Shown here: piece after piece, positions 813 through 27,810 of the stretch
How positions within the stretch are numbered: position 1 is the stretch's first letter
Layout of the letters: the number at the start of each line of letters is the position of its first letter
Source of the DNA: Bradyrhizobium sp. LTSP885
GTDB taxonomy: Bacteria > Pseudomonadota > Alphaproteobacteria > Rhizobiales > Xanthobacteraceae
Length of the DNA: 64,000 nucleotides
Direction of reading: 5' to 3'
Assembly (NCBI RefSeq): GCF_000938305.1
Contig: NZ_JYMT01000032.1
Location: 1-64,000, forward strand
Position numbers and translations under genes: made by a program
Notes under the pieces: generated by a model
The model's database searches: none
Told to the model about the DNA's origin: nothing
The model's input: the letters and a program-made list of their open reading frames with translations, nothing else

Positions 813-1526
813 CTAATGCCCGCCGAGATAGGCCGCGATCAGCTTCGGGTCGTGGATCAGGGTGTCCGCGGGCCCTGACTGGATGATCTCGCCGGTTTCC
901 AGCACATAGCCGTAGTCGGCGGTCTCCAGCGCAGCCCGCGCGTTCTGCTCGACCAGCAGGACCGATACGCCGAGGCTGCGCAGCGAGGCGATGGTGCGGA
1001 AGATCTCGCGCACGATGAGCGGCGCCAGCCCAAGGCTGGGTTCATCGAGCACGAGCAGTTTCGGCTTCGCCATCAGCGCGCGGCCGAGCGCGAGCATTTG
1101 CCGCTCGCCGCCCGACAACGTGCCGGCGGCCTGCTTGCTGCGCTCCTTGAGCCGCGGGAAGCGGTCGAAGACGTCGTCGAGGCTCTTCCGTGTCGTCGAG
1201 CGATCGCGCAGGCTGTAGGTGCCGAGCAACAGATTGTCGGCGACCGACATGTCGGCGAACAGCTCGCGCTTCTCAGGGACCAAGCAGAGGCCGCGCTCGA
1301 CGCGGCCCTCGACATCGATCTTCGCCAGATTGGCGCCCTGGAACAGCATCCGTCCTGTGGACCGCAGCAAGCCGATCGCCGCCATCAGCAGCGTGGTCTT
1401 GCCGGCGCCGTTCGGGCCGATCACGGTCACAATTTGTCCCTGCTCGACGGACAGCGAGACGTTGCGCACCGCCTCCACCTTGCCGTAAGCGACGGACACA
1501 TTCTCGATCGAGAGCATCTGCGTCAT
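813..1526 (-). CDS. livF: Branched-chain-type ABC importer ATPase LivF
   Basis: This 237-residue cytoplasmic ATPase powers a LIV/HAAT-type ABC importer. Walker A GPNGAGKT lies at residues 37-44, followed by the signature LSGGERQ and Walker B LLVLDEPSLGLAP. The ending, with a short C-terminal tail (LIAAYLGGH), is typical of LivF and distinguishes it from LivG. Its start overlaps the stop of the upstream livMG fusion by 4 bp, so the two are translationally coupled. It is the last gene of the operon binding protein-livH-livMG-livF. The substrate is unknown; the neighbouring CoA ligases and thiolase suggest an organic or aromatic acid rather than an amino acid. Confidence 0.93.
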   Translation of the reverse strand: MTQMLSIENVSVAYGKVEAVRNVSLSVEQGQIVTVIGPNGAGKTTLLMAAIGLLRSTGRMLFQGANLAKIDVEGRVERGLCLVPEKRELFADMSVADNLLLGTYSLRDRSTTRKSLDDVFDRFPRLKERSKQAAGTLSGGERQMLALGRALMAKPKLLVLDEPSLGLAPLIVREIFRTIASLRSLGVSVLLVEQNARAALETADYGYVLETGEIIQSGPADTLIHDPKLIAAYLGGH

Positions 1527-3292
1527 GCGACCCCTCCGAGATAGGCTTCCTGGACCCGGGCGTCGCTGCGGATCGCCGCCGGTCCGCCCTCGCAGAGCTT
1601 TGAACCGAAATCGAGCACGACGATGCGATCGACCAGCGACATGACGAATTCCATGTCGTGCTCGACCAGCAGGATCGTCAGATGGTCCGATCGCAGCGAG
1701 CGCAGCAATTCGGCGAGCTTCTGCTTCTCCTGACGGCGCAGCCCGGCCGCGGGCTCGTCGAGTACGAGCAGCGTCGGATCGGCTGCGAGCGCGCGGGCGA
1801 TTTCAAGCACGCGCTGATTGCCGAGCGGCAGGTTGCCGGCGAACTCGAACGGCTTGTCGCCGAGCCCGACCCGTTCGAGTTGCTGCAACGCCTCGTAGCG
1901 CGCGCTGGCTTCTTCCGCCTGATTCAGGCGCAGGGCGCCGGCGAGCAGGCCGGTCCTGGTGCGCGAGTAGGTGCCGAGCAGCACGTTGTCGAGCAGCGTC
2001 ATGTGCGGGCGCAGCTTGACGTGTTGGAAGGTGCGGGAGATCCCGGACCGCGCGATACGGAATTGCGGGTCGCGGGTGATCGATCGATCAGCGAATTTGA
2101 TCTCGCCGCTGTTGGCGCGAAGCGCACCGGTGAGCAGGTTGAACATCGTGCTCTTGCCGGCACCATTCGGGCCGATCAGGCCGAGGATCTCGCCGGACCG
2201 CACCTCGAAGCTGACATTGTTGACGGCGACCAGGCCGCCGAACCGGCGTTGCACGCTGCTGACCTTGAGAAGCGGGGTGCCGGGTGCCGGCTGCTCGCGG
2301 CGCGGCAACGGGGCGGCCTGCTCCGGGCGGGACAATTTCAGATCCGGCAGCAGGCCGGAAATGAAGGGGACGATGCCTTGCCGCGCGCGTTGCAGGAACA
2401 AGATGAACAGCGCCGAGAATGCCACGATCTCGAGCTGACCCGAGGCACCTTTCGCGATCAGCGGAAGGTAGTCCTGCACGGAGTTCTTCAGCAGCGTGAC
2501 GATCGCAGCGCCGACCACACCGCCCAAAACGCTGCCGGCGCCGCCAACCATCGCCATCATCAGATATTCGATGCCCATGCTGGCATCAAACGGTCCGGGA
2601 CTGACGAAGCGGCCGAGATGGGCGTAGAGCCATCCGGACAGCGCGCCACAGAAAGCGGCGATGACGAACGTCAGGAGCCTGATCTGGAATGCACTGATTC
2701 CGAGGCTTTCCACGAGCGTATTGCCGCCACGAAGTGCCCGCATCGCGCGGCCGATGCGGGAGTCCAAGAGGTTGTAGCAAAGCAGAAGGACCGCAGCGAC
2801 GATCGCCCAGATCAGGAAATAGATCTGCCAGCTCTGGACCAGGGCAACCGGGCCGATCGAGATCGGGGGAAGGCCCGAAATGCCGTTATGTTCGCCAAGC
2901 CCGTCGATGTTGCCGAACAGGAATGCGATCGCCAGCCCCCACGCGACCGTGCTCAGCGACAGGAAATGGCCCTGCAGGCGCAGCGTCACGAGGCCCAGCA
3001 TCGCTGCGATGCTGCAGGTCAGGACAACTGCCAACAGCAGTCCGAGCCAGGGCGAATAGCCGTTCAGCGCCGTCACCCACGCCGTGGAATAGGCTGCAAT
3101 GCCGACGAAAGCGGCCTGGCCGAATGACACGATGCCGCCGACCCCGGTCAACAGCGCAAGCCCGATCGCTGCGAGCGCATAGATGCCGACGTAGTTCAGC
3201 AATGTGATGCTGAACGGATTGAGCACGAAGGGCGCCGCGATGAGACAGGCGACCACTGCTGCAATGATGAGGCGGATTTGCAGCCGGGTCAT
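1523..3292 (-). CDS. Fused LivM permease - LivG ATPase
   Basis: This 589-residue protein joins an inner-membrane permease of the LivM type (about residues 1-305, eight or more hydrophobic helices) to a LivG-type ATPase (about 340-589). The ATPase half shows Walker A GPNGAGKS, the TFQHVKL region, the family-typical degenerate signature LPLGNQRVLEIARAL and Walker B LLVLDEPAAGL. Fusions of this kind are frequent in Bradyrhizobium-like genomes. The gene overlaps livH and livF by 4 bp on either side, which suggests one translationally coupled transcript. It provides half of the membrane channel and one of the two nucleotide-binding domains. Confidence 0.93.
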   Translation of the reverse strand: MTRLQIRLIIAAVVACLIAAPFVLNPFSITLLNYVGIYALAAIGLALLTGVGGIVSFGQAAFVGIAAYSTAWVTALNGYSPWLGLLLAVVLTCSIAAMLGLVTLRLQGHFLSLSTVAWGLAIAFLFGNIDGLGEHNGISGLPPISIGPVALVQSWQIYFLIWAIVAAVLLLCYNLLDSRIGRAMRALRGGNTLVESLGISAFQIRLLTFVIAAFCGALSGWLYAHLGRFVSPGPFDASMGIEYLMMAMVGGAGSVLGGVVGAAIVTLLKNSVQDYLPLIAKGASGQLEIVAFSALFILFLQRARQGIVPFISGLLPDLKLSRPEQAAPLPRREQPAPGTPLLKVSSVQRRFGGLVAVNNVSFEVRSGEILGLIGPNGAGKSTMFNLLTGALRANSGEIKFADRSITRDPQFRIARSGISRTFQHVKLRPHMTLLDNVLLGTYSRTRTGLLAGALRLNQAEEASARYEALQQLERVGLGDKPFEFAGNLPLGNQRVLEIARALAADPTLLVLDEPAAGLRRQEKQKLAELLRSLRSDHLTILLVEHDMEFVMSLVDRIVVLDFGSKLCEGGPAAIRSDARVQEAYLGGVA

Positions 3293-4332
3293 TCCTCGAT
3301 CTCCTCTTCGGAATGCTGCGTGGCGAGTGAGCGCCAGAGCAGGACGGGGATCAGCAGCGAGAACACGATGACGTCCTTCAGGGTGCTGCTTTCGAATGAA
3401 GCGAAGCTTTCGAGAATGCCGACGCCGAACGCCCCGAGCGCGGCTCCGGGGTAGCTGACCAGGCCGCCGACGATGGCGCCGACAAAGGCCTTCAGCCCGA
3501 TCAGGAATCCGGAGTCGTAGAAGATCGTGTTGACCGGCGCGATCAGGATGCCGGAGACGCCCGCCATCAGCGATCCCAACAGATAGGCGATGGTTCCGGC
3601 GCGCGCCGGCCTGATGCCCATCAGCCGCGCGCCGGTCCGATTGAAGGCGGTGGCGCGCAGCGCCTTGCCGAGGAGGGTGAAATCGAAGAACAGGAATAGC
3701 AGGCCGCTGAACACCAGCGCCGCCGTCAGGATCAGCACGGTTTGTCCGGGAACGTGAACGTCGCCGATATCAAGCGCAAGCGAGGTCAGCGGCTCGGTCC
3801 TGACGCCTTCGGGGCCGAAGAACATCAGCCCCAGTCCGACCAGCGCGAAATGCAGGGCGACCGAGACCGTCAGCAGCAGCAGAACCGACGCGTCCGCGAT
3901 CGGGCGAAATACGATCCGGTCCAGCAGCGGCGCGACCGGCAGGATGAGCAGCAGAGCCAGCACGATCCGGATCTGCATCGGTGGGTTGAAGCGCATCGCC
4001 AGCCAGACGATCCCGACCGCGACCAGGGGAAGCACGAGATAGCCGAGCACGGCCTTCGGCATCGCGCGAAGCTCGCCCGCGCGCGCCAGCGACGTCACCT
4101 CCATCAGGCAGGCCATGCAGGCCAGCACGACGACCAGCCCGACCGTCCCGGGCAGCTGCTTGGCGTCGAGCGCAGCCAGCGTCAGCGCGGTGAAGGCCGC
4201 GATGTCGCCGAATGGGATGAAGATCACCCGCGTGACGGTGAAGATCAGCACGGTTCCGATCGCGACCAGGGCATAGATTGCCCCGGTCGCTATTCCATCG
4301 ACCGCGAGGATCGCTGCGATGTCTGCCGTCAT
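3289..4332 (-). CDS. livH: Branched-chain-type ABC importer permease LivH
   Basis: An integral membrane protein of 347 residues with about eight hydrophobic segments, beginning MTADIAAILAVDGIATGAIY as LivH proteins do. It carries the conserved cytoplasmic loop GKALRATAFNRTGARLMGI, which couples to the ATPase. I chose the ATG ending at 4332 because it sits after an AGGA-type ribosome site. A longer frame to 4401 would add 23 unlike residues that run into the preceding binding-protein gene. It pairs with the LivM half of the fusion protein. A hydrophobic stretch around residues 75-130 is longer than in typical LivH. Confidence 0.9.
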   Translation of the reverse strand: MTADIAAILAVDGIATGAIYALVAIGTVLIFTVTRVIFIPFGDIAAFTALTLAALDAKQLPGTVGLVVVLACMACLMEVTSLARAGELRAMPKAVLGYLVLPLVAVGIVWLAMRFNPPMQIRIVLALLLILPVAPLLDRIVFRPIADASVLLLLTVSVALHFALVGLGLMFFGPEGVRTEPLTSLALDIGDVHVPGQTVLILTAALVFSGLLFLFFDFTLLGKALRATAFNRTGARLMGIRPARAGTIAYLLGSLMAGVSGILIAPVNTIFYDSGFLIGLKAFVGAIVGGLVSYPGAALGAFGVGILESFASFESSTLKDVIVFSLLIPVLLWRSLATQHSEEEIEE

Positions 4333-4360
4333 GCCTTTGATCGTCCTTTGGTGCTCTCGC

Positions 4361-5509
4361 TCAGGGCTCGTAGGTCCAGGCGCCATTGACCAGGCGGACA
4401 ATCACCAGCGCGCGTTCGTCGACACCGTGATAGGCGCCGGGCTTGAAGTTGTAGATCGCATGCACGCCCGGCATTTCCTTGGTGTTCAGGATCTCGTCGC
4501 GCAGCGCCTTGTGGAATTCGGCAGTGCCGGGCTTCGCGGTCTTCAACGCGCGCGCCGCGGCTTCTGTGAAGATCTTCCAGCCGTCGAAGGAATAGGCTGA
4601 AAAACCGTCCGTCGACGGCAGGTTGTTGGCCTTCTGGTAGGCCGCACGGAACTCGAGCGCCAGCTTCTTGGCGAAATGAGTGTCTGGAAGCTGCTCGGCC
4701 ACGATGACGGGACCTGCGGAAACCTGAATTCCGTCGGCGGCCTTGCCGCCGACGCGCACGAAATCGGGATTGACCAGCGCCACCGTACCGTAGGTCTTGC
4801 CCTTGAAGCCACGGTCGGCAAGCGCCAATAGCGGCAGCGCGCCCTGCGTGCCCGACCCGCCGTCCAGGACGGCATCGGGACGGGTCGCGAGCACCTTGAG
4901 GATCTGGCCGGTGACCGAGGTATCGACGCGTGCATAGCGTTCGTTGGTCAGCACCTTGATGCCGTCATCGGCTTCGACCGCCTTGGCGCCGTTATAGACG
5001 AGATCGCCCCAGGCGTCGGAGAAGCCGATATAGCCGATGTTCTTCATACCATCGCGCTTCATGCGGTCGGCGACGACCTTGACCAGCAACGAGGCGGGCT
5101 GCGGAACGCAGATGCCCCATTGATCGGCCGGGTCCGGCAGTCCGATGATCGGGGAGACGGCGATCATCGGCACCTTCAGCTCGGTCGCGACCGCCATCAT
5201 GGCGATGGTCGAGGGCGCGGTCGCGGTGCCGATCAACAGATCGACCTTCTCTTCTTCGATGAGCTTGCGGGCGGCGCGGCTCGCGGCGGAGGGATCGGAG
5301 CCGTCGTCGAGTTGGATCAGCCGGATCTTCTCACCGTTGACCTCGCCCTTGTATTCGAGCGCGGCCTGGATACCCCGCCCATAGGGGATGCCGATCGAGG
5401 CGCCGGGTCCACTGAGCGAGGTCACGAACCCGACCGTGATGTCGGCCTGTGCGGTCGAGGCCGCGACGAGGCCGCCGAACAGTGCAGCCAAACTCAAGAT
5501 CTTGCGCAT
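4361..5509 (-). CDS. Periplasmic LIV-type solute-binding protein
   Basis: A 382-residue periplasmic binding protein with a Sec signal peptide (MRKILSLAALFGGLVAASTAQA) and the two-lobed type I fold of LivJ-like receptors (ITVGFVTSLSGPGASIGIPY, SRAARKLIEEEKVDLLIGTA). It is the first gene of the LIV-type operon and presumably defines its substrate. It is clearly related to the second binding protein at 11413-12573: both share the VGFVT-LSGP start and the QLDDGSDP motif. The cluster therefore encodes two receptors for one channel. The 72-bp gap to the divergent hydrolase gene must hold both promoters. Confidence 0.92.
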   Translation of the reverse strand: MRKILSLAALFGGLVAASTAQADITVGFVTSLSGPGASIGIPYGRGIQAALEYKGEVNGEKIRLIQLDDGSDPSAASRAARKLIEEEKVDLLIGTATAPSTIAMMAVATELKVPMIAVSPIIGLPDPADQWGICVPQPASLLVKVVADRMKRDGMKNIGYIGFSDAWGDLVYNGAKAVEADDGIKVLTNERYARVDTSVTGQILKVLATRPDAVLDGGSGTQGALPLLALADRGFKGKTYGTVALVNPDFVRVGGKAADGIQVSAGPVIVAEQLPDTHFAKKLALEFRAAYQKANNLPSTDGFSAYSFDGWKIFTEAAARALKTAKPGTAEFHKALRDEILNTKEMPGVHAIYNFKPGAYHGVDERALVIVRLVNGAWTYEP

Positions 5510-5581
5510 TGCGTTCCCCTTGGTTGAAAACAGCCGCTAGCTGAGCGAAATGTAAGGTTGGATCGAAGTAGGAGCTATGAA

Positions 5582-6406
5582 ATGACCACGAGCAAAGCCG
5601 GCTCTCACGTCGAACGCCGCTTCGTCACGACGCAGCTTGGCCGCATTCACGTGGCCATGACGGGAAATGGGTTTCCCGTCTTGCTGCTGCACCAGACGCC
5701 GCGTTCGTGGGACGAGTATCGCGACGTGCTGCCGTTGCTCGGCCACGATTTTCGCGCGATTGCGATGGACACGCCCGGTTTCGGGGATTCCGACCGGCCG
5801 ACCGGCGAACCTTCGATCGAAGCCTGGGCGCAGACCGCGCTGGCGCTGCTCGACGCGCTTGAATTGCCGCGCGCCGCGATCGTCGGACATCACACCGGCG
5901 CTGTCATCGCTGTGGAAATGGCCGCTTCGGCACCGGCGCGGGTGAGCGCGCTGGTGCTTTCGGCCTGTCCCTTCGTCGATGCGGCGCGCCGCGCCAAGCA
6001 CCAGGGCATGCGGGTCATCGACGATGTCGAGACGCGGAGCGACGGCGCTCATCTCACGGAGCTCTGGGCGCGCCGTCAGCCATTTTATCCGGCCGGCGAT
6101 ACCGATCTGTTGCAGCGCTTCATCATCGACGCGCTGCGGTCTGGCGAGATGGCGGCCGAGGGCCACCGGGTGGTGAATCGCTATCGGATGGAGGACCGTC
6201 TGGGACTCATCCGGTGCCCCACGCTGGTCATTGCTCCGACGGGCGATCCACACGTTCATCCGGTGGCTCCGAAGGTCGCCGGTGCGATCGACGGCAGCAT
6301 CCTGCGCGAGCTCTCAGGAGGCATGGTGCCGCTTCCCGATCAGATGCCGGAGGCATTCGCCGGCTTGGTGCGAGACTTCGTGGCTGCTCACGTCGCCAAA
6401 CCCTGA
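5582..6406 (+). CDS. Alpha/beta-hydrolase-fold protein with a non-canonical nucleophile elbow
   Basis: The 274-residue cytosolic protein has the alpha/beta hydrolase order: oxyanion-loop HQTPRSWDEY, the strand-turn MDTPGFGDSDRP, the nucleophile elbow and a C-terminal cap. The elbow reads GHHTG (residues 102-106) instead of G-x-S/D/C-x-G, so a histidine sits where the nucleophile should be. The usual C-terminal catalytic His also appears replaced (SGGMVPLPDQ). The acid-loop Asp (GDPHVHP) is kept. The ATG at 5582 follows AGGAG at 5570-5574 and is preferred to an upstream TTG. It may use another chemistry (lyase, decarboxylase or cofactor-free oxygenase). This is inference; only the fold is secure. 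Confidence 0.82.
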   Translation: MTTSKAGSHVERRFVTTQLGRIHVAMTGNGFPVLLLHQTPRSWDEYRDVLPLLGHDFRAIAMDTPGFGDSDRPTGEPSIEAWAQTALALLDALELPRAAIVGHHTGAVIAVEMAASAPARVSALVLSACPFVDAARRAKHQGMRVIDDVETRSDGAHLTELWARRQPFYPAGDTDLLQRFIIDALRSGEMAAEGHRVVNRYRMEDRLGLIRCPTLVIAPTGDPHVHPVAPKVAGAIDGSILRELSGGMVPLPDQMPEAFAGLVRDFVAAHVAKP

Positions 6407-6885
6407 CACGACGCGGCCGCGTCGGGCGAGGGGGACCCCGCCGGCAGCACCTGTTGTTCCGAGGTCGATGATCTCAGCCACGCTGGAGAAACCCCTGATC
6501 GACGTCCCTGACGACGCGGCGTGCGCCCACGCGGCGTCGGCCCTGTCAATTATTTGAAGTCTAAAGTATCTGTCGGCCGAACGTCAATACACCCTTTGCG
6601 GAAAAGTTGGTCGCGGCAGGTGCTGTCACGAAAGCCGAATTCGCTTATGCAAAAGGGAAAGGCGCGATCTGCCTGTCGTTTCGGCAAACCGTTGCCGCCA
6701 TGCGCGGCGTGCGTGATCGTGCCGTTCAATTGACGCCAAAATTGTTTTGTGGTTGAAATAATTCGGTCGACGGGACGGTGCCATCGCTACGGCACGCGTT
6801 CACAATGACAGGCATGCGTGTGTCGTCAGCCCCCACTTCGGCGGTTCGAGCATCGGCACGGTTGCCTGTGAACAGGATATCCGCT
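6407..6885. other. Long intergenic region, possible decayed coding remnant
   Basis: This is 479 bp without a convincing gene. It holds an A/T-rich dyad-like site at 6549-6569 that recurs upstream of the CoA ligases. A frame is open from 6565 to the stop at 6754-6756, about 63 codons. It reads plausibly protein-like (FAEKLVAAGAVTKAEF) but has no start codon or ribosome site, so it may be the relic of a lost gene or chance. The last part, from about 6740, should contain the promoter of the racemase-fold gene. Confidence 0.4.
6549..6569. promoter_or_regulatory. A/T-rich operator-like site, copy 1
   Basis: The right half TAAAGTAT is a close copy of the right half (TAAACTAT) of the dyad at 14422-14441, and both are followed by CT. 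The left half (TTATTTGA) is degenerate. It stands out in a GC-rich background. A shared transcription-factor site, for example of MarR type, is an inference. It lies far (about 320 bp) from the start at 6886. Confidence 0.35.
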
Positions 6886-7686
6886 GTGCGCATCTTCTGG
6901 CAGAGCTTCGTCGACCAGGCCACGAGCGCGCCCTACATGGCGCGGCTGGCGACTTATCTGAATGAGATCGCCGCGCCCGGCACGTCAGTCCATGTCGAGG
7001 GCATCACGCCAGCCGATCGCGATTTCGGCCGCTTGAGCGAATTCCGTTGCGCGATCCAGGCGGTCGACAATGGGCTCGCGGCACAGGAGCGCGGCTTCGA
7101 CGCCTATGTCATGGGCCACTTCCAGGATCCCGGATTGTACGAGCTGCGCTCGGCGCTGACTGTGCCGGTGGTCGGCGCCGGCGAGGCGACGCTGCTGGCG
7201 GCGTCGCAGCTTGGACGGCGGCTTGGCCTTATCACGCTCGATCAAGCTTTCGAGGTTTGGCATTACGAGCAGGCCGATCGCTATGGTCTGAGCGGCCGTG
7301 TGGTGCACGTCACCGGCATGGGCTGCCGGCCGGAGGATTTCAGCGCCGCGTTTGCCGGCGATGCGGCTGCGAAAGCGCGTATGCTGAACGACTTTGCGGC
7401 CTGCGCGCAGCCGCTGGTCGATCGCGGCGCCGACGTCATCATTCCGGCCGGTGTGTTGCCCGGCCTGCTGATTGCGAGCGAACAGGGATTCAAGATTGGT
7501 CATGCGCCGGTGGTCAACTGCGCGGCGGTTGCGCTGAAGAGCGCCGAAATGTGGGTGCAGTTGCAGCGCCTTAACGGCACCGAACCGAGCCGGGGGCCGA
7601 GCTTTGCGCTCGCCAATGACCGGGCGCGCCAGGATTTTCGCGCACTCGTGGCGCGCACGCAAGCTACCGACTCCAAGATACGCTGA
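6886..7686 (+). CDS. Asp/Glu/hydantoin-racemase-fold protein lacking both catalytic cysteines
   Basis: The 266-residue protein follows the Asp/Glu/hydantoin racemase pattern, beginning VRIFWQSF, with LTVPVVGAGEATLLAAS marking the first domain. Where family members carry the first catalytic cysteine (ACxSDPG) it reads GHFQDPG, with His near residue 78. Where the second (GCAGM) should be it reads IIPAGVLPG. Both cysteines are therefore absent, unlike in the racemase at 27015-27680. I start at GTG 6886, 8 nt after AGGA and matching the family N-terminus. Upstream in-frame ATGs add unlike residues. It is probably not a two-base racemase; a lyase, isomerase or decarboxylase role in the local pathway is possible. 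Confidence 0.82.
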   Translation: MRIFWQSFVDQATSAPYMARLATYLNEIAAPGTSVHVEGITPADRDFGRLSEFRCAIQAVDNGLAAQERGFDAYVMGHFQDPGLYELRSALTVPVVGAGEATLLAASQLGRRLGLITLDQAFEVWHYEQADRYGLSGRVVHVTGMGCRPEDFSAAFAGDAAAKARMLNDFAACAQPLVDRGADVIIPAGVLPGLLIASEQGFKIGHAPVVNCAAVALKSAEMWVQLQRLNGTEPSRGPSFALANDRARQDFRALVARTQATDSKIR

Positions 7687-7694
7687 GGACAACC

Positions 7695-8123
7695 ATGCTG
7701 CGGCCTGACAAGATCCTGTATGAAGCCGAGGTGATGGCAACCGGCGGACGCGACGGCAAGGCCGTGAGCGACGACGGGCTTCTCGCGGTGTCGCTGTCGC
7801 TGCCGAAATCGCTGGGCGGCCCGGGCGGGCCGGGGACCAATCCAGAGCAGCTCTTTGCTGCCGGCTATGCGGCGTGCTTTCTCGGCGCGGTAAAGCTCGT
7901 CGCGCGCACTCGCAAGGTCATGCCGTCGGCAGAACCGACCGTCACCGCCAGGGTCGGCATGGGTCCGGTCGCAATCGGCTATGCGCTGACCGTCGAACTC
8001 AAGGTGCTGATCCCCGGGGTGGAGAAATCCGTCGCCGAGGAGGTCGTTGCCGGCGCCCACGAACGCTGTCCCTATTCGAATGCGACGCGCGGCAACATCG
8101 ACGTCACGCTGACCGTACTCTGA
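7695..8123 (+). CDS. ohr: Organic hydroperoxide resistance protein (OsmC/Ohr family)
   Basis: The 142-residue cytosolic protein is a thiol peroxidase of the Ohr branch. It has the peroxidatic cysteine in AAGYAACFLGAV and the resolving cysteine in RCPYSNATRGNIDV, both with the Ohr consensus around them. Ohr reduces organic and fatty-acid hydroperoxides using a lipoylated or dithiol partner. It starts 8 bp after the racemase-fold gene, so it is very likely co-transcribed. No adjacent OhrR gene is visible. Its placement inside a catabolic operon is unusual and hints that the pathway produces or meets peroxides, which is inference. Confidence 0.93.
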   Translation: MLRPDKILYEAEVMATGGRDGKAVSDDGLLAVSLSLPKSLGGPGGPGTNPEQLFAAGYAACFLGAVKLVARTRKVMPSAEPTVTARVGMGPVAIGYALTVELKVLIPGVEKSVAEEVVAGAHERCPYSNATRGNIDVTLTVL

Positions 8124-8153
8124 GCAGCCTCACGACAGGAATCCGGCAATCCG

Positions 8154-9332
8154 ATGCAGAACTCCATCCGCACACCTTATGACCGGGTCGTGATGGCGGT
8201 TCCGGTGACGATCCCCTATGTGCGCTACTCGATCGAGAGCGCGCAATGGTGGATCGGCCGGGCCCTGAAATCGCTGGTCGATGGTGCCGGGATCACGCCG
8301 CGCGACATCGACGGGTTCTGTGTGTCGAGCTTCACGGCAGGGCTCGATAGCGGGATCAGCCTGACCCAGCATTTCGGCCTGTGCGTGCGATGGCTCGACA
8401 CCATTCCGCTTGGCGGCGCCAGCGCGATTGCCGCGCTACGGCGTGCCGCGCGGGCCGTGCAGGCAGGCGATGCCCGCATCGTGGCCTGCGTGGCCGGCGA
8501 CACCAACCACGTCGATTCGTTCCGCTTCACGCTGGAGAACTTCTCGCGCTTCAACCAGGACGCGGTCTATCCCTACGGCGCCGGCGGCGCCAATGCGAGC
8601 TTTGCGCTGATCGCGCGCAATTACATGCGCAAATTCGGCGCGCAGCGCGAAGATTTCGGCAAGATCGCCGTCGCGCAGCGCGCAAACGCGCTTCGCAATC
8701 CCCACGCCCTGATGAAAACGCCGCTGACCATCGAGCAATACATGGCGGCACGGCCGATTGCCGACCCGATCCATCTGTTCGACTGCGTGATGCCGTGCGC
8801 TGGCGCGGAGGCATTCCTCGTGATGGGGGAGGATGTCGCGGCGTCGCTGAAGTTGCCTGCCGCCAAAATTCTCGCCACGATCGAGCGGCACAATGCGTTC
8901 GGCGATGACCCTGTTCAGGTGCGTGGCGGCTGGGCGATGGATGTCGACGAGCTCTACGCGATGGCCGGCGTCAAGCCGGACGACCTTGATTTCGTCGAGA
9001 CCTATGATGATTACCCTGTGATCTCGATGATGCAGTTCGAGGATCTCGGCTTCTGCCGCAAGGGCGAAGGGCCGGATTTTGTGCGGCAGCATGACCTGAC
9101 AATCGACGGCACCTTCCCGCATAACACCTCCGGCGGTCAATTGTCGGTCGGGCAGGCCGGCGCTGGCGGTGCCTATCTCGGGGTGGTCGAGGCGATGCGC
9201 CAGGTGCTTGGGCTCGCCGGTCCGACGCAGGTCAAGGATGCGCGCATCGGGTTGGCGTCGGGCTTCGGAATGATCAATTATGATCGCGGCCTCGCCTCGG
9301 GCGCGGCGATCCTCGCGGGACCGGGTATATGA
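8154..9332 (+). CDS. SCP-x-type thiolase-fold protein (lipid-transfer/aldolase-like)
   Basis: The 392-residue protein has the thiolase fold of the SCP-x/lipid-transfer group, with the NTSGGQLSVGQAG region near the C-terminus. The catalytic cysteine of true thiolases is missing; the region reads IPLGGASAIAAL. It has the ETYDDYP stretch seen in thiolase-like enzymes that pair with DUF35 partners. In Ltp2-ChsH2 complexes of steroid side-chain breakdown such a pair acts as a retro-aldolase. Here the next gene encodes a DUF35 protein and overlaps by 4 bp, so a two-protein complex cleaving a beta-hydroxyacyl-CoA or a similar C-C bond is a reasonable inference. The substrate is unknown. Confidence 0.88.
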   Translation: MQNSIRTPYDRVVMAVPVTIPYVRYSIESAQWWIGRALKSLVDGAGITPRDIDGFCVSSFTAGLDSGISLTQHFGLCVRWLDTIPLGGASAIAALRRAARAVQAGDARIVACVAGDTNHVDSFRFTLENFSRFNQDAVYPYGAGGANASFALIARNYMRKFGAQREDFGKIAVAQRANALRNPHALMKTPLTIEQYMAARPIADPIHLFDCVMPCAGAEAFLVMGEDVAASLKLPAAKILATIERHNAFGDDPVQVRGGWAMDVDELYAMAGVKPDDLDFVETYDDYPVISMMQFEDLGFCRKGEGPDFVRQHDLTIDGTFPHNTSGGQLSVGQAGAGGAYLGVVEAMRQVLGLAGPTQVKDARIGLASGFGMINYDRGLASGAAILAGPGI

Positions 9333-10570
9333 TCGAACCGATCGCAAAACCGCGCCGGAAGAACCCGCTCTCGCGGACGCGGCTGCCGATGTCGCCACCG
9401 CGCGCCCGCAGCCGTGCGTCGCACGGCTTCACGCGCGCTGCCGCCGAGGGGCGCTTCGTGCTGCAGTGCTGCGGTGCCTGCAGCACCTTTTGTTATCCCG
9501 CGCGCGATGCGTGCCCTTCGTGTCTGTCCGCCGATCTCGTCTTTGTCGATGCACCGCGGCGCGGCATGCTGTTGAGCGAAACCACCTTGCACGTCCCTGC
9601 CGACGTGTATTTCCGCGAACGCGCGCCGTGGCGCGTCGGCCTGGTCGCGATGGACTGCGGGCCGAAACTGGTCGCGCATCTGCACGCCGACTGCGAAGAG
9701 GGGCGGCCGGTCACGATGTCGTTTCAATTGGACAAGAGCGGGCAGGCCGTGGCCTTTGCGCACCCCGAACGTGAGACCCCCAACATGACTGATGACAGGC
9801 AGTGGCGGGAGATGACCGCCGATCCGAAGTTCCGGCGCGTCCTGGTGACGAACGGGCGGAGCATCGTGGGTCAGGAGGTGGTGACCGCGCTGAAGGCGGC
9901 CGGTGCGTCGATTGTGTTCGTTGGTGTCGCCGAACCGTGGAAGCCGTTCCGCGGTGAGGAAACATTGCGCGCGCTCGAGGGCGTCCAGATCGTACCACTC
10001 GACATCGGCGACGAGAAGTCGGTCGCGGATCTGGCGGCCGATATCGGCGGCAAGGTGGATATCCTCGTCAACACATCAGAGCATGTCCGCGTCGGCGGGC
10101 TGCTCGATCGCCAGGGCACTAGCGTCGTACGTGACGAGATCGACCAGACCTATCTCGGCTTCGTGCACCTGGCGCAGGCGTTCGGGCCGGCGATGCGGAT
10201 GCGGGGCTCCGACGGAGTCAACAGCGCCGCCGCATGGGTCAATATCCTGTCGGTCTATGCGTTGGCGAACTGGCCGGTGTTCGGCGCGTATTCGGCGTCG
10301 CAGGCGGCCTCACTCTCGCTGTCGCACTGCCTGCGCGCGGAGCTGCGGCCCGGCGGCGTTAAGGTGGTGAATGTGTTCACAGGCCCGCTCGATACCGAGT
10401 GGTTCCAGACGGTGCCGCCGCCGAAGGTCGCTCCCCGAATGGTCGCGACCTCGATCGTGTCGGCGCTCAAGCGCGGACTGGAGGATGTGTTCGTGGGCGA
10501 TGTCGCCGAGGATATTCGCCAGCGCCTTGCGGCCAACCCCAAGGCCCTCGAGCGCGAGCTCGGGTCATAG
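9329..10570 (+). CDS. DUF35 zinc-ribbon/OB-fold fused to a degenerate SDR domain
   Basis: The 413-residue protein has two parts. Residues about 35-150 form a DUF35 module: a zinc ribbon with C48-x2-C51 and C62-x2-C65 and then an OB-fold. Residues about 168-413 form a short-chain dehydrogenase/reductase domain. The SDR half is degenerate. The cofactor loop reads TNGRSIVG rather than TGxxxGIG, and the catalytic YxxxK is Y321-SAS-Q325, so the lysine is lost; Ser308 remains. The ATG overlaps the thiolase stop. DUF35 proteins bind acyl-CoA and partner with SCP-x thiolases, so this should be the thiolase's partner. The fused pseudo-SDR may be structural or CoA-binding. Confidence 0.86.
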   Translation: MIEPIAKPRRKNPLSRTRLPMSPPRARSRASHGFTRAAAEGRFVLQCCGACSTFCYPARDACPSCLSADLVFVDAPRRGMLLSETTLHVPADVYFRERAPWRVGLVAMDCGPKLVAHLHADCEEGRPVTMSFQLDKSGQAVAFAHPERETPNMTDDRQWREMTADPKFRRVLVTNGRSIVGQEVVTALKAAGASIVFVGVAEPWKPFRGEETLRALEGVQIVPLDIGDEKSVADLAADIGGKVDILVNTSEHVRVGGLLDRQGTSVVRDEIDQTYLGFVHLAQAFGPAMRMRGSDGVNSAAAWVNILSVYALANWPVFGAYSASQAASLSLSHCLRAELRPGGVKVVNVFTGPLDTEWFQTVPPPKVAPRMVATSIVSALKRGLEDVFVGDVAEDIRQRLAANPKALERELGS

Positions 10571-10599
10571 ACGGAATTGTCGAAAACGGGAGAAGCGCT

Positions 10600-11388
10600 A
10601 TGGACAGCAACAATCTCATGCAGTTTGCCGATGCCGTTGCATCGGGCGCGGTGCGCGTCGTCGATCTGACCTTCACTCTCAGTCCGGACTTCCCGGTCAT
10701 CGTGCTGCCGCCGGAGTTCGGCCAGGCCGCGCCGGTGCGCATCCAGCGGATTTCGCAATACGATGCGGCTGGTCCTGCCTGGTACTGGAATAACCTGACC
10801 TTCGGCGAGCATACCGGCACGCATTTCGACGCGCCGATCCACTGGTTCACCGGCAAGGATCTGCCGAACAATTCAGTCGACACGCTGCCGGTCAGCGACA
10901 TGATCGCGCCGGCCTGCGTGATCGATTGTTCGGCCGAGGCCGCGCAAGACCCGGATTTCTTGCTGACGATTCCCGTCGTCGAGGCCTGGGAGAAGAGCCA
11001 CGGTCGGATTCCGCCGCGTCACTGGGTGCTGCTGCGCACCGACTGGTCGAAGAAGGGCTGGCGCGACTATGCCAATCTGAAGGACGATGGCGCACACACG
11101 CCGGGGCCGGATGCTGCCGTGATGCGGTGGCTCGTCGAGGAGCGCGGCATCATCGGCCTCGGCACCGAGACGATCGGGACCGATGCCGGTCAGGCCGGTC
11201 ATCTCGATCCGCCCTATCCGGCACACCATTTCCTGCACGGCGGCGGGCGCTACGGTCTGCAGTGCCTGTGCAATCTCGATCAGCTTCCTCCGACCGGCGC
11301 GGTGATCGTTGCCGCGCCGCTGAAGATCCAGAACGGCTCCGGCAGTCCGCTGCGCGTGCTCGCGCTGCTGCCCGTCGGGCAGGCTTGA
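10600..11388 (+). CDS. Cyclase/kynurenine-formamidase-family metal hydrolase
   Basis: The 262-residue protein belongs to the cyclase family (PF04199), which includes KynB and isatin hydrolase. The metal motif HTGTHFDAPIH is present near residues 70-80, and a second conserved segment reads GLGTETIGTDAGQ. Members hydrolyse amides, lactams or cyclic esters with divalent metal. The ATG at 10600 follows GGGAGA and gives the usual family length; an upstream in-frame extension would run into the preceding gene. It is in the same operon as the thiolase pair, 29 bp downstream. A ring-opening or amide-cleaving step in the same pathway is likely, but the substrate cannot be read from sequence. Confidence 0.88.
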   Translation: MDSNNLMQFADAVASGAVRVVDLTFTLSPDFPVIVLPPEFGQAAPVRIQRISQYDAAGPAWYWNNLTFGEHTGTHFDAPIHWFTGKDLPNNSVDTLPVSDMIAPACVIDCSAEAAQDPDFLLTIPVVEAWEKSHGRIPPRHWVLLRTDWSKKGWRDYANLKDDGAHTPGPDAAVMRWLVEERGIIGLGTETIGTDAGQAGHLDPPYPAHHFLHGGGRYGLQCLCNLDQLPPTGAVIVAAPLKIQNGSGSPLRVLALLPVGQA

Positions 11389-11412
11389 GCCTTTCCGCCC
11401 ACTTTGAGTGAC

Positions 11413-12573
11413 ATGATGAACAAGAAGAAGACTTTGCTGGTTGGCGCTGCGCTCCTGCTCGGCTTCATGGCGCCGGCACGCGCTGAAATCCTGGTCGGCT
11501 TCGTCACCGGCCTGAGCGGACCGGTGTCGTCGATCGGCGTGCCGAACGCCAAGGGGCTGGCGGCGGGCCAGGCGTATATCGGCGAGGTCGACGGCGAGAA
11601 GGTTCGCGTCATCCAGCTCGACGATGGCTCGGATCCGGCGGCGTCGACGCGCAACGCGCGCAAGCTGGTCGAACAGGAAAAGGTCGACTTCCTGATCGGG
11701 ACGTCAGGCGCGCCGCAGACGTTGGCGATGGCGACTGCGGCGATCGAAATGAAGGTGCCGATGGTGGCGATCTCGCCGATCGCGCCGGTGCCGGCCGGGG
11801 AGGGCGGGCCGTGGGTTGTACAAACACCGCAGCCGACGTCGCTTCTCGTCCAGGGCATCGTCGATCACATGACGAGCCGCGGTGTGAAGACCGTGGCGTT
11901 CATCGGCTTCTCCGACGCGTTCGGCGACCTCTTGTACAATTCGCTGCTGCAAAGCGCCGAGAAGGCCGGGATCAAGGTGATCGCGAACGAGCGCTATGCG
12001 CGTTCCGACAACTCGGTCACCGCGCAGGTGCTGCGCGCGCTGTCCGCACGCCCTGATGCGGTCATGCTGGGTGGTACCGGAACGCCCGGCGCGCTGCCCG
12101 TGATTGCGCTGTCCGAGCGTGGCTATAAAGGCCCGCTCTACGGCAATCACGGCATGATCAGCGCCGACTTCCTGCGGCTTGCCGGCAAGTCGGCAGAGGG
12201 CATCATTTGCCCAACCGGACCAGTGACGGCAGCCGAGCAACTTCCCGAGAGCAATCCGATCCGCAAAGTCGCGCTTGCGTTCCGCGCGGCCTATGAGAAG
12301 GCCAACGGCGAACCGCCAGCCGACGCGTTTTCGCCCTATGCCTTCGATGGCTGGCTGGTGTTCATGGATGCGGCCAAACGCGCAAAGGCGACAGGTGCGA
12401 TGCCGGGCACGCCGGCATTTCGCATCGCGCTGCGCGAGGCGCTGTTCACGACGAAGGATGTGGTCGGCACGCACGGCATCTACACCTACACGCCGGCCGA
12501 CCGTTACGGGGTCGACGAGCGCGCACGGATCCTGGTCCAGATCGAAAACGGAAAGTACAAGCTGCTGCAATAA
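11413..12573 (+). CDS. Periplasmic LIV-type solute-binding protein, paralog of 4361-5509
   Basis: A 386-residue LivJ-like receptor with a signal peptide (KKTLLVGAALLLGFMAPARA). It closely parallels the binding protein at 4361-5509, sharing VGFVTGLSGP, QLDDGSDP and ARKLVEQEKVDFLIG. There is no permease next to it, so it probably feeds the livH-livMG-livF channel at the start of the window. Two ATG codons lie in tandem (11413, 11416) after a weak GAG; I used the first. It ends the plus-strand catabolic run and is followed directly by a strong terminator hairpin. Confidence 0.9.
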   Translation: MMNKKKTLLVGAALLLGFMAPARAEILVGFVTGLSGPVSSIGVPNAKGLAAGQAYIGEVDGEKVRVIQLDDGSDPAASTRNARKLVEQEKVDFLIGTSGAPQTLAMATAAIEMKVPMVAISPIAPVPAGEGGPWVVQTPQPTSLLVQGIVDHMTSRGVKTVAFIGFSDAFGDLLYNSLLQSAEKAGIKVIANERYARSDNSVTAQVLRALSARPDAVMLGGTGTPGALPVIALSERGYKGPLYGNHGMISADFLRLAGKSAEGIICPTGPVTAAEQLPESNPIRKVALAFRAAYEKANGEPPADAFSPYAFDGWLVFMDAAKRAKATGAMPGTPAFRIALREALFTTKDVVGTHGIYTYTPADRYGVDERARILVQIENGKYKLLQ

Positions 12574-12620
12574 AGCGAGATGGTGCTTCTTCGAAGCCTC
12601 ATCTCGCTTTATCTCTTTTG
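12572..12620. terminator. Rho-independent-type terminator after the binding-protein gene
   Basis: A perfect 11-bp inverted repeat (AAAGCGAGATG at 12572-12582, CATCTCGCTTT at 12600-12610) overlaps the stop codon. It contains an inner GCTTC/GAAGC dyad and is followed by the T-rich stretch ATCTCTTTTGTTTT. It ends the plus-strand run before the convergent CoA-ligase gene. Confidence 0.75.
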
Positions 12621-12624
12621 TTTT

Positions 12625-12673
12625 GAGCATGATCTGCTCGGAAAACCGGTTCCCACTTTTCCGGATCATGCTC
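12625..12673. repeat. Intergenic palindromic element (Bradyrhizobium-type)
   Basis: Exact outer arms GAGCATGATC (12625-12634) and GATCATGCTC (12664-12673) enclose inner arms CGGAAAA (12639-12645) and TTTTCCG (12657-12663) around an ACCGGTTCCCA-like core. I recognise this as a dispersed intergenic palindrome common in Bradyrhizobium and relatives; copy number cannot be checked here. It lies between convergent genes and could also act as a terminator for the minus-strand ligase. Confidence 0.75.
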
Positions 12674-12692
12674 GAGGGCAGCAGCCTGCTGC

Positions 12693-14327
12693 TCAGGTGT
12701 GCCGGAGCTTGGCCTTGAGCGCGCGCAGATCGATCGCGCGGTTGGCGCTGACGGCCGCGGCCGCGAGCGTCTTGATCTCGCCCCGGGCGAGTTTGCGCGT
12801 CGACGACAGCGGCAACTCGTCGACGATTGCGACATAGCCGGGCACCTTGTGATAGGCGAGGCGCTCGGCGCAGGTCTTGACGATCGAGGTCGCGAGCGCG
12901 GTTATGTCGTCGACCTCCGCGTTCGGAACGATGAAGACGAAAACCTCTTCGCCGCGGATGTCGTCAGGAACGGGCGTCACCGCGCAGCCGCCGATGCGGG
13001 TGTCCATGTAGAGCGCGCTTTCGACCTCGAGCACGCCGATATTCTCGCCGCTGCGCCGCACGATGGTCTTCTTGCGGTCGAAGAAATACATCAGCCTGTC
13101 TTCGTCGGCGAAGACGAGGTCCCCGGTGTGAAACCAGCCGCCTTGCCAGGCTGTTTCGGTCGCTTCCTCGTCCTTCAGGTAGCCGCTGAAGAATCCGGCC
13201 CTCGCGTCGTCGCCCTTGGCGCGGACCAGCAATTCGCCGGGTTTTCCAGGCGCGACATCGGCGCCCTGATCGTCAACGAGCCGATACTCCATGCCTTCGG
13301 ATGGCCGGCCGACGCAGCGCGCGCCAAACCCGGCCGGCTCGCGCGCCGTGGTCGTGGCCGCGGCACCTCCGGTCTCCGTCATCGCCCAGGCTTCGACGAT
13401 CGGAATGCGATAACGCTCTTCGAAGGTGGCACGGTGGCGGACATCAACCCCAGGCGCAAAGGCGAAACGCACGCGATGCTGCCTTTCAACCTCGGTCACC
13501 GGCAGTTGCAGCAGGATGGCCGGGATCACGCCGAGACAATGCACGACGGTCGCGCCGCTGTCGGCGACGCATTGCCACCAGCGGTTGGCATGAAAGCGGT
13601 CGAGCGGCACCACCGCGCCACCGAGCACCATCATCCCGACGGCGCTGCAGCCGAGTGCGTTCATGTGGAACATCGGCAATGGCGTCAGGTTGATCTCGCT
13701 GCCCGGCTGCAGCTCGGCCACACCGCCCTGCGCGAGATACCAGTCGGCAACCCCGAGAAAATAGCGGTTCGAGAGCATGCACCCTTTCGGCTTGCCGGTG
13801 CTGCCTGACGTGAACAGCAAGGCGCATTCGCCGTTGAAGTCGGGATCCTGGGCCGCGACTTCGCTCTCGCAGGACGGGATGCGGCTGTCGGTGTCGATCA
13901 GGCGGGCGCGCCCGAGTGCGGCACCCTTGGTCACCTGCATGCGATCCGTCGCCGCCACCAGCAGGTCGGCCTGCGACAGCTCGAGCTGGAACGATAGCTC
14001 ATCGGGGCGGACGTCGGGGTTGATTGGGACGATCGAAACCCCGAGCGCATTGAGCGCGAGCCAATGCTGGAAAAAGACCGGGCGATTTTCGAGCAGCAAG
14101 GCGACCCGCGCACCGCGTCCATAGCCGGCAGCGGCGTATTCCGCGCAGAGACGATCGACCTCCGTCTTGAACGGTCCGTACGCAATCGTGAATCCGTCCG
14201 GTGCGTAAGGCAGTCCCGCGCTTGCAGGTGCCAGCAGGAACGGCGCGTCCGGCCGTCTGGCAGCGCTGGCCGCGAAGGCGTCGGATGGCGATCGATAGGG
14301 CAAGCGATCGAGAATGTCGCGACTCAT
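12693..14327 (-). CDS. Acyl-CoA ligase (AMP-dependent synthetase family)
   Basis: The 544-residue protein is an ANL-superfamily adenylate-forming enzyme that should activate a carboxylic acid to its CoA thioester. The P-loop LLFTSGSTGKPKG, the motif AWAMTETGG, the hinge segment GDLVFADEDRLMYFFDRKK and the C-terminal lysine region (STRKLARGEIK) are all present. I start at MSRDILDRLPYRSP (14327); an ATG three codons upstream is nearly as good because AGGAG lies just before it. The gene is divergent from another CoA ligase, with a palindromic operator-like site between them. It resembles crotonobetaine/carnitine- and long-chain-type ligases in general form; the substrate is unknown. Confidence 0.9.
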   Translation of the reverse strand: MSRDILDRLPYRSPSDAFAASAARRPDAPFLLAPASAGLPYAPDGFTIAYGPFKTEVDRLCAEYAAAGYGRGARVALLLENRPVFFQHWLALNALGVSIVPINPDVRPDELSFQLELSQADLLVAATDRMQVTKGAALGRARLIDTDSRIPSCESEVAAQDPDFNGECALLFTSGSTGKPKGCMLSNRYFLGVADWYLAQGGVAELQPGSEINLTPLPMFHMNALGCSAVGMMVLGGAVVPLDRFHANRWWQCVADSGATVVHCLGVIPAILLQLPVTEVERQHRVRFAFAPGVDVRHRATFEERYRIPIVEAWAMTETGGAAATTTAREPAGFGARCVGRPSEGMEYRLVDDQGADVAPGKPGELLVRAKGDDARAGFFSGYLKDEEATETAWQGGWFHTGDLVFADEDRLMYFFDRKKTIVRRSGENIGVLEVESALYMDTRIGGCAVTPVPDDIRGEEVFVFIVPNAEVDDITALATSIVKTCAERLAYHKVPGYVAIVDELPLSSTRKLARGEIKTLAAAAVSANRAIDLRALKAKLRHT

Positions 14328-14421
14328 TGCGGGCATAGCTCCTGTTGATGCCTCCAGCCTGCCGCGCCGGACGGCGGCCGGAACCCGCACGCAGCGCTTG
14401 CTGTGGCGGCAGCTTTGGTGA

Positions 14422-14441
14422 ATACTTTAAGCCTAAACTAT
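14422..14441. promoter_or_regulatory. Palindromic operator-like site between divergent CoA ligases, copy 2
   Basis: ATACTTTA-AGCC-TAAACTAT is an inverted repeat with 7 of 8 matching positions per arm in a GC-rich background. It lies about 57 bp before the GTG at 14498 and about 95 bp from the divergent start at 14327, so it could control both ligases. A degenerate copy sits at 6549-6569. A/T-rich dyads like this are typical of MarR-family catabolic repressors; no MarR gene is in the window. Confidence 0.5.
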
Positions 14442-14497
14442 CTCGCTGGCCAGTAGTGATCTCAGCGGATCGGCGCAGCAAATCGGTGGAGGCGCAT

Positions 14498-16129: not shown

Positions 16130-16183
16130 CCAGCTTAAATTCCCTGTGATGGATTGGAGCCAGAGTTCAAGAGCAGTCGCAGG

Positions 16184-17101: not shown

Positions 17102-17253
17102 ATCACTGCCGGTTATTGTCTCGCCCGAAATATCATAGCACGGGTGATTGCAATTAGCGGGCCGTTTTCGCGTAATGGGCGGCGCACCGGAGCGCTGACG
17201 GAGCGGGGGCATTCGCCTCTTGCCTAGGCAATCCGCACAGGTTGGAGGCAAAC
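17102..17253. promoter_or_regulatory. Divergent promoter region between LysR and the hydrolase operon
   Basis: The 152-bp gap is A/T-enriched on the LysR side (17111-17156) and includes ATTGCAAT at 17147-17154 and an ATC(17132-17134)/GAT(17146-17148) pair with 11 bp between. A canonical T-N11-A LysR box is not clear. GGAGG at 17244-17248 serves the TTG start at 17254. Confidence 0.45.
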
Positions 17254-18210: not shown

Positions 18211-18249
18211 CTTGACCAAGCCGATCGTGGCGTTCTGGAAGGAGGAGAG

Positions 18250-20689: not shown

Positions 20690-20702
20690 TGAGGCGACCT
20701 TC

Positions 20703-25393: not shown

Positions 25394-25444
25394 CGGCTCG
25401 ACGATGCTCCAACGCAACACCAAATAAAGCAATCAGGAAAACTC

Positions 25445-27680: not shown

Positions 27681-27738
27681 GTTTTCCTGCAGGACGACAC
27701 TTCGCGAGATGCCGTGAGACAAAGGTATAACGCGGTTA

Positions 27739-27753
27739 CGATTGAAGCAATCG
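27739..27753. promoter_or_regulatory. Dyad in the racemase-hydantoinase divergent region
   Basis: CGATTG-AAG-CAATCG is a perfect 6-bp inverted repeat with a 3-bp spacer, 59 bp from the racemase start and about 120 bp from the hydantoinase start. It is a plausible operator for a regulator of both genes; none is adjacent. Confidence 0.4.
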
Positions 27754-27810
27754 ATGTGCCATCAGTAATGCGTGGTCAGCTGTCTGCTGCGACAGCGCGA
27801 GGCGGCATGG

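Follow-up and report, generated by a model that had tools for sequence, protein, structure and literature searches.

In a stretch of 64,000 nucleotides from Bradyrhizobium sp. LTSP885 (contig NZ_JYMT01000032.1, positions 1 to 64,000; the whole stretch is called the window below), two overlapping genes, iadG and iadH, encode a thiolase-fold protein and a fusion of a DUF35 protein with a short-chain dehydrogenase/reductase (SDR) domain. The two products are probably IadG and IadH of the iad route of indole-3-acetic acid (IAA) degradation, acting together as a redox-neutral retro-aldolase in which the SDR domain is non-catalytic. As judged from sequence, the pair would be a thiolase–DUF35 aldolase with an active-site motif of its own, a dead SDR domain fused to it and a role in the auxin pathway. 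This reading builds on the iad gene context, the genetics of Variovorax, the fold and motifs of IadG, and the motifs of and selection on IadH. What the present analysis establishes is the gene set, the motifs, the selection and the predicted folds of the two proteins.

iadG and iadH are already known as auxin-catabolism genes and were shown to be needed in Variovorax (PMC12633357). The preliminary description of this DNA had proposed a new layout and possibly a new complex. The system itself is thus known; the apparent novelty lies in the interpretation of the pair as an aldolase and in the DUF35–pseudo-SDR make-up of IadH. Neither was found for iadG/iadH in the titles and abstract openings of the literature matches listed, most subscription papers being outside reach.

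The gene pair and its conservation

The pair has the following features.

8154..9332, + strand: iadG, candidate thiolase-fold aldolase, 392 amino acids, with Gly88 at the place of the thiolase cysteine, Y284-D-D286-Y287, Gln329 and Gln334
9329..10570, + strand: iadH, fusion of a DUF35 part and a degenerate SDR part, 413 amino acids
9419..9766, + strand: DUF35 part of iadH, residues 31-146, with a zinc ribbon (Cys48/51/62/65) and an OB fold
9827..10567, + strand: pseudo-SDR part of iadH, residues 167-413

Two overlapping reading frames, a thiolase without its cysteine and a DUF35–SDR fusion had been claimed in the preliminary description, and all three were borne out. The frames lie at the coordinates given above and share 4 bp (ATGA, 9329-9332); Gly88 stands at the cysteine position in the alignment to Sal of Comamonas testosteroni (CtSal); and the product of iadH matched zf-ChsH2 (37-70), OB_ChsH2_C (73-133) and adh_short (171-362) above the Pfam cut-offs. 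For the product of iadG, Thiolase_C_1 was matched above its cut-off and Thiolase_N below.

We then looked for the layout in databases. In the genome_contigs set, the best 80 of 85 related loci were analysed; more than half are from Bradyrhizobium, as are the loci closest to the pair of the window, so that conservation counts in this set are not independent. Every one of the 80 loci has the fusion, though contig ends truncate it in L059 and L062 and the alignment of L085 starts at residue 11; a thiolase gene lay directly upstream of it in 77, a contig end being found there in the other three (L038, L059, L062). The fusion was also found at E ≤ 1e-30 in 34 plasmid records, all of which cover at least 80% of iadH; the carriers are Roseibium, Sulfitobacter, Paracoccus, Ruegeria, Novosphingobium and others. 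Of 398 genomes drawn evenly across the phylum, 8, including that of the window, have it at E ≤ 1e-60, and among 369 genomes of the class of genome G379, a draw that may not include Variovorax, it was found in G379 only. One record named Frankia sp. RB7 (L051) holds a Bradyrhizobium-type locus with 80% identity and the same gene order, and is probably mislabelled or contaminated.

IadG resembles DUF35-partnered aldolases

The predicted model of IadG had a mean pLDDT of 80.9. Its best solved matches, by sequence and by fold, were two aldolases with DUF35 partners, Sal-Shy (9myr; Z 42.9, rmsd 2.7, 369 aligned) and Ltp2-ChsH2 (6ok1; Z 41.0, rmsd 3.0, 364 aligned). The latter had been named as a comparison in the preliminary description; the likeness holds in kind, though not for the steroid substrate.

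To compare residues, we fixed the numbering of CtSal by its named residues Gly89, Gln161, Tyr302, Gln347 and Gln352, which gave a constant offset of 24 (PMC12329534). Gly88 of IadG aligns with CtSal Gly89, which occupies the place of the catalytic cysteine of SCP-2 thiolases (PMC12329534). Glycine was found there in 87 of 88 IadG sequences, the exception being L119, the thiolase of which matches in two pieces (306 amino acids were used). The YDDY motif, Gln329 and Gln334 were present in 88 of 88 and correspond to Y302-D-C304-Y, Q347 and Q352 of CtSal, Tyr284 being aligned with the base Tyr302 and Asp286 with the acid Cys304. For the residue counts of IadG and IadH, we took each locus protein from the start of its tblastn match up to the following stop codon, with annotated starts for some plasmid genes; in the IadG counts, L118 is represented by a second thiolase rather than the one beside its IadH, which also has YDDY by eye.

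IadG therefore has the SCP2-thiolase fold in its predicted model, the Cys-to-Gly replacement and the base tyrosine in a YDxF/Y motif (Y284-D285, 88 of 88), and it lacks the nucleophilic cysteine of a thiolase proper (EC 2.3.1.9/16). It is like Sal, a bile-acid aldolase, in all of these, in the YD-x-Y form of the motif, in its two conserved glutamines and in having a DUF35 partner; the steroid substrate of Sal-Shy differs from the oxindole proposed for IadG-IadH. With the cholesterol aldolase Ltp2-ChsH2 it shares the thiolase fold of a retro-aldolase, a comparable motif (YD-x-F) and the DUF35 partner, whereas Ltp2 has YDHF instead of YDDY and a second catalytic tyrosine, Tyr344, at the place of Gln334 (Gln in 88 of 88 IadG sequences). 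With Asp286 at the place of the Sal cysteine and Gln334 at that of Ltp2 Tyr344, IadG forms a separate subgroup and is neither Sal nor Ltp2 proper. YDDY and both glutamines also occur in three sister thiolases, those of loci L125-L127.

IadH joins a DUF35 part to a degenerate SDR domain

The set of IadH sequences comprised 95 members: the window, the 80 loci and 14 more distant ones. The four zinc-ribbon cysteines were complete in 94, the remaining sequence being cut by a contig end, and IadH has the zinc ribbon and OB fold of a ChsH2-type partner. The DUF35 part was also found by phmmer, which matched it to 6ok1_B (E 2.4e-8). Among the 50 best Foldseek matches listed for the IadH model, all were SDR chains, so that the evidence for the DUF35 fold comes from Pfam and this phmmer match. 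The DUF35 part may be the docking partner of IadG; the two genes are adjacent in 77 of 80 loci. Shy also carries a DUF35 part, fused to MaoC instead of an SDR and with a Cys3His1 zinc site instead of Cys4. ChsH2 resembles IadH in having a catalytically dead domain attached to DUF35, which is MaoC in ChsH2 and SDR in IadH; the dead MaoC domain holds the steroid, and the reaction itself is carried out by ChsH1 (PMC11321319).

The predicted model of IadH has the SDR fold (5u4s_B, TM 0.86 normalised by target), and it departs from classical SDRs in both the TGxxxGxG loop and the YxxxK dyad: the window reads TNGRSIVG and Y321-SAS-Q325. The catalytic Tyr and Lys were found together in none of the 95 copies. 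The lysine position held Q in 62, H in 13, E in 10, A in 4, N in 2, and C, K, G and L in 1 each; the only copy with Lys, that of L112, has Phe for Tyr. At the tyrosine position we found Y in 63, H in 13, F in 8 and other residues in 11. The first glycine of the cofactor loop was absent from all 95 (Asn in 57, Asp in 37, Ser in 1), and the three loop glycines occurred together in 0 of 91 SDR copies. The IadJ homologue encoded in the genome of the window, on the other hand, is a normal SDR, with SGGNTGIG and YSATK at these places. The preliminary description was thus right to speak of a pseudo-SDR with a degenerate cofactor loop; its statement that the catalytic lysine is Gln is true of the window (Q325) and does not hold as a family rule, since it is the loss that matters and not the glutamine.

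Asn248, Gly352, Pro353, Trp358, Gln360, Pro365 and Lys366 were invariant in an alignment of 91 sequences. The four sequences added to it break this invariance: L122 and L123 lack Trp358, and L121, the IadH of which aligns poorly (about 32%), deviates along its whole length. Between the window and 16 close relatives, the median ratio of nonsynonymous to synonymous substitution rates (dN/dS) was 0.084 for the SDR part, 0.105 for the DUF35 part and 0.055 for IadG (Nei-Gojobori, window against each of the 16; the pairs are not independent). The low value indicates that the SDR domain is under purifying selection though its catalytic residues are gone. We rejected a decaying pseudo-domain because dN/dS in the SDR part was as low as in DUF35. 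The domain would be a non-dehydrogenase retained for assembly or substrate binding.

The genes around the pair and the iad gene set

The neighbouring genes are the following.

10600..11388, + strand: iadI, isatin hydrolase of the cyclase family PF04199 (Pfam Cyclase; best PDB matches are isatin hydrolase A)
11416..12573, + strand: iadK2-like ABC substrate-binding protein (best PDB match 7ylt_B, 477 bits)
12693..14345, - strand: iadF-like AMP-forming acyl-CoA ligase (47% to the R. pomeroyi ligase)
7695..8123, + strand: Ohr-family organic hydroperoxide reductase (TIGR03561 above cut-off), directly upstream of iadG
6778..7686, + strand: Asp/Glu/hydantoin-racemase-family protein (PF01177), a conserved neighbour
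1523..5509, - strand: branched-chain-amino-acid-type ABC importer with a fused permease-ATPase, a permease and a binding protein (Pfam)

The product of iadI matched isatin hydrolase (5nna/5nnb) with an E value of 1.5e-113 and kynurenine formamidase with only 9.7e-7, and a homologue was present in 78 of the 80 loci. A role in steroid side-chain breakdown was dropped, the context being an isatin hydrolase and iad genes. The structure matched by the binding protein, 7ylt, is presumably that of Variovorax IadK2. When the ligase of the cluster of Ruegeria pomeroyi DSS-3 was compared with the genome, 48 places matched, the ligase gene best of all; among the 25 NCBIfam matches listed for its product, all ligase models were below cut-off.

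Further members of the set lie elsewhere in the same genome. On contig C25, homologues of iadA, B, C, D, E and J and a MarR gene are contiguous and encode two indolepyruvate-oxidoreductase (IOR)-like subunits, a reductase, Rieske alpha and beta subunits, a dehydrogenase and the MarR protein. The IadD-like Rieske alpha subunit matched 7yls_B with 635 bits, 7yls presumably being Variovorax IadD. A TGA flagged inside the iadD match on the contig is by its coordinates the stop of the gene itself (open reading frame 9037-10506 of L114). In R. pomeroyi DSS-3, the order iadC-D-E-F-G-H-I-J is contiguous, as judged by product names, and the C-to-J order also occurs in Roseibium, Paracoccus, Sulfitobacter and L112, which is in a genome of another class. 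iadG and iadH stand contiguously between iadF and iadI in R. pomeroyi and in L112; in the genome of the window the set is split into two blocks, and iadF lies past iadI and on the other strand. R. pomeroyi DSS-3 was tested as an IAA degrader, and its MarR_3CDH was counted among the iad regulators (PMC9613470).

We named the pair IadG and IadH because the same series of names and annotations is found in Variovorax, where IadF is called an acyl-CoA synthase, IadG an acetyltransferase, IadH an alcohol dehydrogenase, IadI a kynurenine formamidase and IadJ a dehydrogenase (PMC12633357). The likeness lies in the position between iadF and iadI and in the annotation classes; the difference is that the Variovorax proteins are described as a ketothiolase and an alcohol dehydrogenase (PMC12633357). 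The word starts DUF35 and thiolase were absent from that text, though its section 5 has 'ketothiolase'. In V. paradoxus CL14, IadH-J correspond to IMG genes 2643613663-2643613665 (PMC10374108).

As to the other neighbours, an Ohr homologue (at least 55% identity) was present in 58 of 80 loci, and it is pure speculation that an Ohr-type enzyme reduces 3-hydroperoxy-oxindole-acetate to dioxindole-3-acetic acid (DOAA). A racemase-family homologue (at least 35% identity) was found in 71 of 80. The binding protein of the importer is 52% identical to that encoded at 11416, and the importer is possibly an uptake system. In L112, positions 3003-16800 hold two Rieske alpha/beta sets and three binding-protein matches in the iad cluster. 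A second CoA ligase gene (14345-16129; NF004808 above cut-off, 854 vs 722 bits) adjoins the iadF-like gene. Further on, nitrilase-like genes at 17242-18210 (NCBIfam) and 25445-26377 (by eye), an Asp/Glu-racemase-like gene at 27015-27722 (by eye) and a D-hydantoinase gene at 27836-29344 suggest a separate region for the degradation of N-compounds at 17242-29344.

Proposed reaction

In Variovorax, loss of iadF, G, H or I led to accumulation of C10H9NO4 and lowered anthranilate, and both iadG and iadH were needed for auxin breakdown (PMC12633357). The reaction that we infer for IadG-IadH from sequence, including the roles of the residues and of the SDR domain, would run as follows. IadF would form the CoA thioester of DOAA, a tertiary beta-hydroxy acid. 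With the DUF35 domain of IadH holding it, IadG would use Tyr284 to deprotonate the C3 hydroxyl of DOAA-CoA, and breakage of the C-C bond would release isatin and leave the enolate of acetyl-CoA. This would be protonated, probably by Asp286 (at the place of Sal Cys304), with Gln329 and Gln334 beside it, and IadI would open isatin to isatinate. The SDR domain would keep a non-catalytic role in assembly or substrate binding. A redox cofactor would be unnecessary, as DOAA (C10H9NO4) equals isatin (C8H5NO2) plus acetic acid (C2H4O2). Isatin plus water is C8H7NO3, a formula that was observed in the preprint (PMC12633357).

A more elaborate arrangement is doubtful, though conceivable. IadG-IadH would in that case be a new complex in which the dead dehydrogenase has become a permanent domain for docking or for gripping the substrate. 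It might pair with the active dehydrogenase IadJ, much as ChsH1 is partnered by the dead MaoC domain of ChsH2, and a single assembly would then form DOAA, activate it and cleave its side chain.

Weighing of the aldolase reading against its alternatives

A number of findings weigh against the assignment of the pair as an auxin-pathway aldolase. Other thiolase folds score nearly as well as the aldolases, and 6ok1 is tied with the putative thiolase 4u4e (Z 40.5). The oxyanion residues Gln161 and Gly391 of CtSal are Ala146 and Met373 in IadG, and the acid Cys304 is Asp286, so that the active site differs from that of CtSal. The identity with Variovorax IadG/IadH rests on gene order and annotation, and iadA-E and J of the genome lie on another contig than the pair. 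The MarR protein of contig C25 is closest to 3boq and not to 3CDH, and in the 2.8 kb before iadC of R. pomeroyi we saw by eye no MarR-like open reading frame of at least 110 amino acids, so that its iad regulator cannot be placed at the cluster. Pathway partners are sparse within the 80 loci: iadD (at least 60% identity) was found in 4, iadJ (at least 40%) in 5 and iadC (at least 40%) in 2, and a ligase with at least 40% identity to that of R. pomeroyi in 33 (at least 30% in 67). When the genomes of 20 of these loci were searched, an iadD homologue was present at E ≤ 1e-60 in 7, one of them with only 39% identity, and was not found at that threshold in 13, for which genome completeness was not given; these include nine of Rhizobium, Neorhizobium, Xaviernesmea and Shinella as well as Bradyrhizobium barranii. 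Finally, C8H7NO2, that is, isatin plus 2 H, was reported as the product of IadF-G-H and accumulates in an iadI deletion (PMC12633357).

The lack of iadD at this cut-off in 13 of 20 pair-bearing genomes leaves the idea that all carriers are IAA degraders without support, and it is consistent with the pair cleaving another beta-hydroxyacyl-CoA, perhaps another 3-substituted 3-hydroxyoxindole, with IAA use as one case of several. So is the occurrence of the YDDY thiolases of L125-L127 in different gene settings, one with a 3-hydroxyanthranilate dioxygenase. We consider this unlikely, as the genome of the window has homologues of the whole iad set, and the isatin hydrolase homologue in 78 of 80 loci links the product to isatin also where iadD is missing. 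With isatin hydrolase so frequent and iadD in 4 of 80, the product may be shared while the supply of the substrate differs. The nine Rhizobium, Neorhizobium, Xaviernesmea and Shinella genomes named above (L065, L067, L069, L073, L076, L077, L080, L082, L085) have iadG-H-I homologues and no iadD homologue at E ≤ 1e-60, with a ligase in eight of these loci. On an Agrobacterium pusense plasmid (L116, 2323-5222), a gene for a thiamine pyrophosphate (TPP)-dependent decarboxylase-like protein and one for a zinc dehydrogenase adjoin the pair (below the NCBIfam cut-offs, among the matches listed); this TPP enzyme could decarboxylate isatinate instead of the IOR subunits.

A redox-neutral aldolase contradicts the 2025 Variovorax preprint, which proposes that the acetyl side chain is removed reductively by a ketothiolase, IadG, and an alcohol dehydrogenase, IadH, to give dioxindole (C8H7NO2). 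That route has behind it the annotations and the detection of C8H7NO2 in the iadI deletion and the iadCDEFGH_JK2 strain (PMC12633357), and in the plasmid records, too, IadH is labelled an SDR oxidoreductase. It is very unlikely in view of the glycine at the thiolase Cys place of IadG, the lack in 95 of 95 IadH sequences of the Tyr-Lys dyad and of the first glycine of the cofactor loop, and the neighbouring hydrolase, the expected substrate of which is isatin. Moreover, isatin and isatinic acid were detected in cultures of V. paradoxus, though so was dioxindole (PMC9613470). We would tentatively explain C8H7NO2, the main conflicting datum, as dioxindole arising from reduction of isatin.

It may also be asked whether the SDR domain has kept a redox activity that relies on unusual residues. 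Its predicted fold is intact, Ser308 is found in 87 of 91, purifying selection on the domain is strong, and its closest solved relative, 5u4s (31% identity), was crystallised with NADP. With Asn, Asp or Ser for the first loop glycine throughout, a variable tyrosine and Lys in the single copy that has Phe for Tyr, we rejected this on the motifs and regard it as extremely improbable.

That two genes were joined into the fusion by an error of assembly, named in the preliminary description as a way in which it could fail, is virtually impossible given the identical fusion in all 80 loci and all 34 plasmid records; we found no support for it, a free SDR in related loci showing only that the domains can exist apart.

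Possible origin and probable loss of the SDR domain

Such free SDRs of the 5u4s type occur in two Caballeronia loci, L126 (2870-13112) and L127 (2823-11164), where a YDDY thiolase, a small DUF35-like protein, a CoA ligase and a Tyr-less SDR are encoded by separate genes. These SDRs are 32-34% identical to that of IadH; they have an intact cofactor loop and Lys, and lack the Tyr as well. The DUF35-like protein of L126 matched the zinc ribbon above the Pfam cut-off and the OB fold just below it, and that of L127 showed a sub-threshold zinc ribbon only. L126 additionally carries genes for 3-hydroxyanthranilate 3,4-dioxygenase and RidA. The two loci may encode a sister pathway that acts on some other aromatic acid, and their gene content suggests that thiolase, DUF35 and Tyr-less SDR were associated before the fusion.

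A Sulfitobacter THAF37 plasmid (L118, 9529-11129) encodes a second thiolase, 66% identical to IadG, followed by a free DUF35 protein of 135 amino acids without SDR; they adjoin a complete iadC-J cluster with a fused IadH. In a FastTree phylogeny with several deeper nodes below 0.6, this thiolase groups with that of L072 (support 0.94) inside the thiolases with fused partners, and the SDR was thus probably lost there. The notion that the SDR domain is indispensable is weakened by this locus, although the fused IadH next door might supply an SDR in trans.

Wider meaning

Thiolase-fold proteins with a DUF35 partner are also found in BbsAB (benzoylsuccinyl-CoA thiolase, 7pxp), PhlABC and the archaeal thiolase/HMG-CoA synthase (6esq) (PMC12329534). 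These differ from IadG-IadH in their thiolase or acyl-transfer chemistry. We know of no DUF35-fused SDR in any of the three.

Bacteria with iad loci revert the inhibition of root growth caused by auxin (PMC9613470), and for the side-chain cleavage step of the iad route, genes are assigned while the enzymology is unsettled. If the pair is indeed a redox-neutral aldolase, the pathway would be simplified, DOAA-CoA giving isatin and acetyl-CoA, and the gene names ketothiolase, alcohol dehydrogenase and SDR oxidoreductase would be wrong. Thiolase–DUF35 aldolases would then extend beyond steroid breakdown, IadH would join ChsH2 as a protein in which DUF35 carries a dead enzyme domain, and engineered auxin-degrading strains would gain a defined two-gene part.

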